This document shows, piece after piece, positions 39,665 through 40,782 of a stretch of 40,782 bases of DNA. The notes below the pieces were generated by a model. The model ran no database searches, had not been told where the DNA came from, and worked only from the letters and a program-made list of their open reading frames with translations. The first letter of the stretch is position 1, and each line of letters starts with the position of its first letter. The position numbers and the translations under genes are program-made. Location of the stretch: NCBI GenBank assembly GCA_949425575.1, contig CASPVX010000005.1, positions 1 to 40,782 of the forward strand, written 5' to 3'. Source of the DNA: an uncultured Bacilli bacterium. GTDB lineage: Bacteria; Bacillota_I; Bacilli_A; RF39; UBA660.

Positions 39665-40609
39665 GTGCTTAAAAGATTAACAATAAAAAAAATTACGATA
39701 ACCACTATTGCTTTATTTGCTGTTTTACTTATATATATTGTTCCAACAGAAAGTGAAATAACAATGAATGAAAAATTAGAATATGTTGATAAAACTGTAA
39801 ATACACACCCAATATTCTTGTTAGATAAAAACGGATATGTTAGTTTAACTAATATTGAAGTAAAAAATACTCATGTTGAAGGTCTTGCTAAAGAACTAGC
39901 TACTTATTTGATTAAGGGAGAAAGTGAGAATATTCCTAGTGGTTTTAAAGCAATAATACCACCAGATACAAGAGTTTTAAGTGTTGCTACTGATGATAAA
40001 GGTCTTTTAAAAATTGATTTTTCTAAAGAAATATTCGATGTAGCTAAGGAATATGAGGAAAAAATGGCTGAAGCAATTACATATACACTTACTTCAATTA
40101 AAGGCATTAATAAAGTAATTATTTATGTAGAGGGTGATGTTTTAACAAAGTTGCCAAAAACTAAAATTAATTTACCAAGCACTTTAGATAGAACTTTTGG
40201 AGTGAATAAAGAATATGAATTTACTAGTTTAAATAATATTAATGATGTAACAGTTTATTATGTTAATGAAAATAATGGAAATTATTATTATGTACCTGTA
40301 ACAAAGTATTTAAATGATGATAGGGATAAAGCTGATATTGTTATAGATGAACTTTCTTCAAATTTTAATTATAATCGTAATTTAAAAAGTTTTTTAAATA
40401 GTGAAGCCAAATTACAAGGATTTAATTTAAAAAACAATATTCTTAATTTAGCATTTAACTCTTATATCTATGATACAACAGTTGATAATTCTATTGCAGA
40501 TGAAGTAAAAGAAGTTATAAAATTATCAATGATTGATAATTATGATATAAAGCAAGTTGTTTTTACAGTTGATAATAAAGAAGTTTATAAAAGTGAAATA
40601 AAAGATTAA
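39665..40609 (+). CDS. gerM: GerM-like sporulation lipoprotein homologue (GerMN domains)
   Basis: A 314-residue exported protein with one N-terminal helix (about 10-26, ITTIALFAVLLIYIVP) but no lipobox cysteine, unlike Bacillus GerM. Two GerMN-like units follow. The first is near 35-160 (IFLLDKNGYVSLTNIEVK...IPPDTRVLSVATDDKGLLKID...AITYTLTSIKGINKVIIYVEG). The second is near 190-310 (VTVYYVNENNGNYYYVPVTK...LNLAFNS...VIKLSMIDNYDIKQVVFTVDN). In Bacillus GerM is part of the SpoIIIA-SpoIIQ complex, which fits spoIIIAH nearby. GTG start after AGGTGAT. Confidence 0.85.
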   Translation: MLKRLTIKKITITTIALFAVLLIYIVPTESEITMNEKLEYVDKTVNTHPIFLLDKNGYVSLTNIEVKNTHVEGLAKELATYLIKGESENIPSGFKAIIPPDTRVLSVATDDKGLLKIDFSKEIFDVAKEYEEKMAEAITYTLTSIKGINKVIIYVEGDVLTKLPKTKINLPSTLDRTFGVNKEYEFTSLNNINDVTVYYVNENNGNYYYVPVTKYLNDDRDKADIVIDELSSNFNYNRNLKSFLNSEAKLQGFNLKNNILNLAFNSYIYDTTVDNSIADEVKEVIKLSMIDNYDIKQVVFTVDNKEVYKSEIKD

Positions 40610-40637
40610 AAAAAGCATCTGTAAAGTGCTTTTTTTG
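40608..40637 (+). terminator. Rho-independent terminator of gerM
   Basis: AAAAAAAGCA/TGCTTTTTTT around a 9-nt loop; overlaps the gerM stop codon. Confidence 0.8.
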
Positions 40638-40640
40638 TTA

Positions 40641-40669
40641 TTGTAATACATTTTGATGTAGTATATAAT
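40641..40669 (+). promoter_or_regulatory. Upstream sigma-A promoter for the last gene
   Basis: TTGTAA, a 17-bp spacer and a perfect TATAAT. It would give a leader of about 100 nt to the ATG at 40779. Confidence 0.6.
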
Positions 40670-40724
40670 AAAAGAAGAATTGTAAATAATAAAAGTAAAG
40701 AAAATTAAAATATCCAATTCCCAC

Positions 40725-40754
40725 TTGCAAATATGCTGGGGGGGGGGGTATAAT
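40725..40754 (+). promoter_or_regulatory. Promoter with G11 spacer, probably phase-variable
   Basis: TTGCAA (40725-40730), an 18-bp spacer that ends in eleven G, and a perfect TATAAT (40749-40754). Both hexamers are good, and the mononucleotide run sits exactly where its length sets the -35/-10 distance. A start near 40761 gives a short leader to RBS AAGGTG and ATG 40779. Confidence 0.8.
40738..40748. repeat. Homopolymer tract of eleven G
   Basis: The longest G run in the window, in otherwise very AT-rich DNA. Such runs change length by slipped-strand mispairing. Confidence 0.95.
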
Positions 40755-40778
40755 GTGTTTAGAGTAAGGTGTTAAAAC

Positions 40779-40782
40779 ATGA
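40779..40782 (+). CDS. Start of a gene cut by the window end
   Basis: ATG at 40779-40781 follows TAAGGTG at 7 bp spacing, downstream of two promoters. Only one codon and one base are visible, so the product is unknown. It is the gene controlled by the G11 promoter. Confidence 0.6.

Follow-up and report, generated by a model that had tools for sequence, protein, structure and literature searches.

We analyzed a stretch of 40,782 nucleotides (the window), which is the entire contig C5 of an assembly of 1.05 Mb in 68 contigs that is 79% complete. Toward its 3′ end, the forward strand encodes a protein with two Germane (GerM-like) domains (39665..40609; Pfam PF10646, E 2 × 10−28). This gene is present in 42 of 44 genomes of the genus and marks the position in relatives. 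The segment 38805-40609 holds SpoIIIAH-like, GerE-like, and Germane-domain genes, that is, genes of the sporulation type in a reduced genome of about 1 Mb. A probable intrinsic terminator of the Germane-domain gene, AAAAAAGCA / TGCTTTTTTT, could be read from the sequence on the same strand (40609..40636), and a simple terminator scan did not report it. The forward strand continues with a sigma-70-like promoter (40641..40669), in which TTGTAA (40641-40646) and TATAAT (40664-40669) are separated by 17 bp. An earlier note, made from these letters alone, had suggested that this second promoter may give a base level of expression. The promoter is real as a pattern but does not always accompany the unit described below: among nine copies of that unit aligned from this genome, seven have it in common and two (C4 and C15) are without it. 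Its spacer contains an inverted repeat, TACAT-TTTG-ATGTA, that is imperfectly kept in most of the seven copies and could be a candidate operator.

The G-run promoter lies at 40725-40754 on the forward strand and reads TTGCAA-ATATGCT-GGGGGGGGGGG-TATAAT. Its −35 element TTGCAA (40725-40730), which falls within the invariant core of the nine copies from this genome, is followed by a non-G linker of 7 nt, ATATGCT (40731-40737), by a run of 11 G that we propose to be a slippage-prone tract (40738-40748; the length of 11 rests on one assembly consensus), and by the −10 element TATAAT (40749-40754). Linker and run together make a spacer of 18 bp (7 + 11), which is within about 1–2 bp of a functional value, so that changes of a single unit would matter, and TTGCAA-ATATGCT-G11-TATAAT qualifies as a homopolymer-spacer promoter, in which recognizable −35 and −10 elements flank a homopolymer of 8 or more nucleotides. 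Further along the same strand are a ribosome-binding-like site, AAGGTG (about 40766-40771), in whose place the copies on contigs C24 and C26 have AAGGAG, and the ATG start codon of the putatively switched gene (40779-40781); position 40782, an A, is the first base of codon 2, and the remainder of the gene is off the contig. The earlier note had described TTGCAA and TATAAT 18 bp apart with 11 G between them in AT-rich DNA, which on re-reading the sequence is exact, and the ribosome-binding site and ATG that it placed after the run are both present. No strong inverted-repeat pair, such as would flank an invertible promoter, was seen around 40725-40754 within 40560-40782, where the contig ends.

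Within the window, which has a GC content of 27%, the G11 run is the longest homopolymer of any base, and runs of A or T are never longer than 8. The octamer GGGGGGGG has four overlapping matches, all of them inside the G11 run, against 0.02 expected from dinucleotide shuffles, and a chance origin of the run was rejected on this count.

To find other G runs beside TATAAT, as the earlier note had advised, we searched the whole genome for runs of at least 8 G. This yielded 13 runs of 10, 11, or 12 G, and all 13 sit in the same promoter arrangement, in which the sense strand of the gene is in every case the one that carries G. Where the contig permits, a TTG-type −35 stands 7–8 nt 5′ of each run. 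The runs are followed by TATAAT or AATAAT, with one GATAAT that uses the last G and one copy that is cut after TA. Ahead of the run, the nine aligned copies have a short core of about 20–30 bp in common.

The arrangement recurs in relatives. Of 36 genomes from the same genus, 10 contain GGGGGGGGTATAAT, at 87 sites in all and up to 29 per 1.2 Mb, and the reversed pattern occurs in none; 23 genomes from other families contained no site. Any run of 9 G is present in 24 of 44 genus genomes and absent from the other 20, and several other genomes of the genus have TACAAT as the −10 element or a few bases that separate the run from it. CCC was seen within 16 nt of the −35 element at 47 of 131 G-run loci genus-wide, most often 10–12 nt upstream (e.g., L204, 2500-2521); this patch could be a putative pairing partner of the G run or a putative binding site. 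Across the class, G9-TATAAT occurs in 25 of 395 genomes taken as a spread sample, with no occurrence of the reversed pattern, and neither of two core patterns was found in viral contigs. Finally, we scanned about 85,000 species and took the first 117 G10-TATAAT sites met; 73 of the 117 have a TTG-type −35 at 16–21 bp with a peak at 19 (requiring at least 10 G favors longer spacing), and for ordinary TATAAT at the same loci, used as a control, at most about 3% have a −35 at any single spacing. Hosts in this broad survey include Streptobacillus, Streptococcus suis, Lachnospiraceae, and Saccharibacteria. The G-run spacer design is widespread, occurring in many unrelated taxa, and the present case stands out because the design serves as a large modular repertoire.

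We then considered how the length of the run relates to the spacing of the promoter. Over 84 loci with a TTG −35, the non-G linker measures 4–10 nt and the run 8–17 nt, and the two are inversely related (Spearman −0.67); for species means over 119 loci in 21 species, with other architectures added, the linker–run rho is −0.64 (P 0.0016). At the 119 genus loci the total spacing has a median of 19 bp, with 19 the commonest and 18 the second commonest value in the genus, 79% of loci at 17–20 bp, and a variance of 3.55 that is smaller than in all 10,000 permutations (lowest 4.04), figures that are to be read with the relatedness of loci within one species and with the search requirement of at least 8 G in mind. 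Such compensation between linker and run is expected of a promoter spacer and not of an unrelated G tract. Run lengths, which are consensus values from metagenome assemblies with one consensus per species, differ in five of six pairs of copies whose upstream flanks are at least 94.7% identical. Interrupted runs (e.g., G7-A-G3 on C33 and G6-T-G2 on C26) keep spacers of 16–18 bp, and we infer that they are stabilized versions.

Next, we characterized the genes behind these promoters. Among the 67 downstream ORFs that reach 30 residues, 56 carry an anchor motif: their N-terminus has a hydrophobic segment containing a G-Y-A-A-F-like motif. Behind the anchor comes either an Ig-like domain (weak DUF11/CARDB matches) or the head directly. 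Heads above Pfam cut-offs are diverse and comprise LamG, phage tail collar with Gp10_C, InlB-type repeats, DUF6273, DUF285 and LRR_5 repeats, a glycine-rich domain, CBM_4_9, and pretoxin-type HINT. In the genomes G012 and G025, anchors are on average 69–70% identical and the last 120 residues 13–20%. The predicted structure of L047, from the genome of the window (mean pLDDT 73), matches part of the IgA peptidase 9qa6 of Thomasclavelia ramosa (E 1 × 10−6) and has a weak match to C-type lectins; the modeled likeness to 9qa6 is a resemblance of fold and not of function. Not every G-run promoter serves this family: an ABC transporter ATPase on C26, for example, is among the other products whose genes follow one. 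Many members of the anchored family have ordinary promoters without a G run. At L415 and L418 (contigs C22 and C25 of G025), a family gene is closely preceded by a hairpin, CAAGGTA...TACCTTG, that carries a long T tract, T18 in the case of L415; this looks like a terminator that might govern read-through by changes in the length of its T tract.

The continuation of the gene cut at 40782 was not found on the other contigs of this genome. At the matching position in the relative G028 (L204), the Germane-domain gene is followed by a G12 promoter, TTGATT-TTTCT-G12-TG-TACAAT, and then by an ORF starting MHRENKKRKIIIFSLVGILL (translated by eye). Since a G12 promoter and a family gene occupy this position in G028, the gene cut at 40782 is very probably a member of the anchored modular family, and its product beyond the contig end is predicted to have an anchor like MKNIFKSKRNIL or MRKHRLDRR followed by a variable head.

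The promoter at 40725-40754 is real, one of the copies that make up a multi-locus system. The earlier note had interpreted it as a phase-variable-type promoter for a surface-type protein, and comparison of sequences bears this out: the core reading, a promoter of the phase-variable type with a G run in its spacer ahead of a surface-type protein, is strongly supported by its occurrence at 13 of 13 G runs of this genome and at about 120 loci genus-wide, by the near-constant spacing with its trade-off between run and linker, and by the anchored modular proteins downstream. The earlier note had also cautioned that a sequencing or assembly fault must be excluded, and the run does lie 34 bases from the contig end; of the 13 runs, 8 have a contig end no more than 450 bp away. 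Faults of this kind occur: in G021 (L334-L346), the sequence of several contigs decays after G14–G20 into poly-A or G-rich noise, likely a poly-G sequencing artefact. Against such an origin, the remaining five runs are thousands of bases inside contigs, an equivalent architecture is found in about 20 other species, and the −10 element, ribosome-binding site, and ATG are intact 3′ of the run. The existence of the run is not an artefact, since runs with coherent flanks are found at 13 sites of this genome and in many species; its exact length is consensus-based, and we rejected the contig-end artefact as scarcely credible. The clustering of contig ends at G runs is what a dispersed repeat would be expected to cause in assembly, and contig C5 probably stops at 40782 since the promoter and signal-peptide region is such a repeat.

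That contigs break at these repeats, and that the heads differ far more from one another than promoter and anchor do, would also be expected if the conserved promoter and signal-peptide region were mainly a homology block for head exchange or gene conversion, with the G run as a by-product. We judge this to be very improbable as the main explanation, given that the core common to the aligned copies of this genome is just about 20–30 bp long before the run and that other species keep the architecture despite unrelated flanks and different −35 and −10 elements; a role as a homology block is in any case compatible with a switch rather than an alternative to it. Somewhat less improbable, though still unlikely, is that a constitutive or regulated promoter uses the G run as a fixed element of set length, either structural or protein-binding (e.g., a stiff or quadruplex-forming spacer). 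Such an element would fit the strand bias, as G is always on the sense strand and C never is in this genome, a bias that a pure slippage switch does not need, and it would fit a spacing that stays near 18–19. A fixed element should, however, keep its own length, and the observed runs vary: near-identical copies differ in run length, runs span G8–G17 across loci while the total spacing is kept, and runs interrupted by A or T occupy the equivalent position with similar total spacing.

We therefore return to the phase-variable reading, and, judging from sequence patterns, we consider it highly probable that these are porA-type phase-variable promoters serving as a genome-wide repertoire. In the proposed mechanism, a housekeeping-sigma promoter would have a −35/−10 spacer that is mostly G run, and replication slippage would add or remove single Gs and so shift the spacing around a working value. 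These shifts would turn downstream transcription up or down, randomly and reversibly. With the unit at 13 places and one gene at each, a cell line would have a whole repertoire of switches, and each G-run copy probably acts at random, and independently of the others, on one surface-type protein. The switched genes would mostly encode one common N-terminal membrane anchor with very different C-terminal binding heads, so cells may differ in the set of heads displayed on their surface; the benefit could be a change in what the cells bind, or evasion of phages or of host immunity.

Multi-gene families of surface proteins in small genomes, with a repeat-controlled promoter for each gene, are found in mycoplasmas, namely Vlp (poly-A spacer) and VlhA/pMGA (GAA repeats), whose proteins are lipoproteins. 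In the system described here, the repeat, its position, and the proteins are different, the latter having an N-terminal hydrophobic anchor and heads made of binding domains. The promoter itself resembles that of porA, which also has poly-G in the spacer of a sigma-70-type promoter and a surface protein as its product. However, porA is one gene in an outer-membrane species, whereas here there are 13 loci, and about 30 in a relative of 1.2 Mb, serving a multi-gene modular family in uncultured bacteria of low GC content that have gut MAGs as their relatives. The tp0126 and tpr promoters of Treponema pallidum offer a further parallel, with poly-G in the spacer of tp0126 and many poly-G tracts in one small genome, 76% of the 17 tested there being clearly length-variable (PMC7864442). 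The tracts of T. pallidum are in various positions (upstream, at the −10, and inside ORFs), whereas those described here almost all occupy the spacer of a single promoter type, and the genes behind them mostly encode proteins of one type. Transcription of Neisseria fetA and opc is altered by a poly-C tract that lies within or at the promoter (PMC5320596, PMC7864442); these have C on the sense strand, and the present runs, with G on the sense strand in 13 of 13, do not follow that pattern.

These systems also bear on the claim of the earlier note that loss of one G would bring the promoter to its optimum, which must count as uncertain. The claim agrees with tp0126, in which poly-G lies between −35 and −10 and 17 bp is optimal (PMC7864442), but not with Neisseria meningitidis porA, where runs of 11G, 10G, and 9G give graded expression that is highest with 11G (PMC3639595), nor with the genus, where the spacing is most often 19 and next most often 18. 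Spacings of 18–19 would mean either that the majority of copies sit in a weak state or that the optimum of a poly-G spacer is slightly longer. There is perhaps an even chance that dozens of independently slipping poly-G spacer promoters in this uncultured reduced-genome lineage form a combinatorial code that chooses, cell by cell, among interchangeable heads (lectin-like, LRR, phage-tail-collar-like, and others) on a common anchor, with a working point that may be 18–19 rather than 17 bp, the spacer being poly-G.

The familiar examples of poly-G spacer switches are single genes in a few pathogens, and here they would form a genome-wide repertoire in an uncultured lineage with small genomes; no description of this multi-locus poly-G promoter system was found in the papers covered by our search. 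The multi-locus design predicts heterogeneity of run length at named loci in existing metagenome reads. As contigs break at G-run genes, the surface repertoire is probably undercounted in such assemblies. At contig ends of G028 (L351, L353, and L357), a run of G8–G11 is followed by the reverse complement of the −35 region of another copy, which is either an assembly chimera or a real head-to-head arrangement.

Loss of mismatch repair as a driver of slippage was rejected for this genome, where MutS (C11, an open frame of 842 codons) and MutL (C26) are both intact; slippage would thus happen with mismatch repair present. In G012, the genome richest in G-run promoters, MutL is present and no match to MutS was found. 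The G012 assembly is also without the Germane-domain gene, found in nearly all relatives, and other expected genes, and an assembly gap may explain the absent MutS. On C26 of the genome of the window, a G-run promoter (G000:C26:79) lies downstream of mutL (G000:C26:443-2005), whose product affects slippage rates; this adjacency is probably a coincidence.
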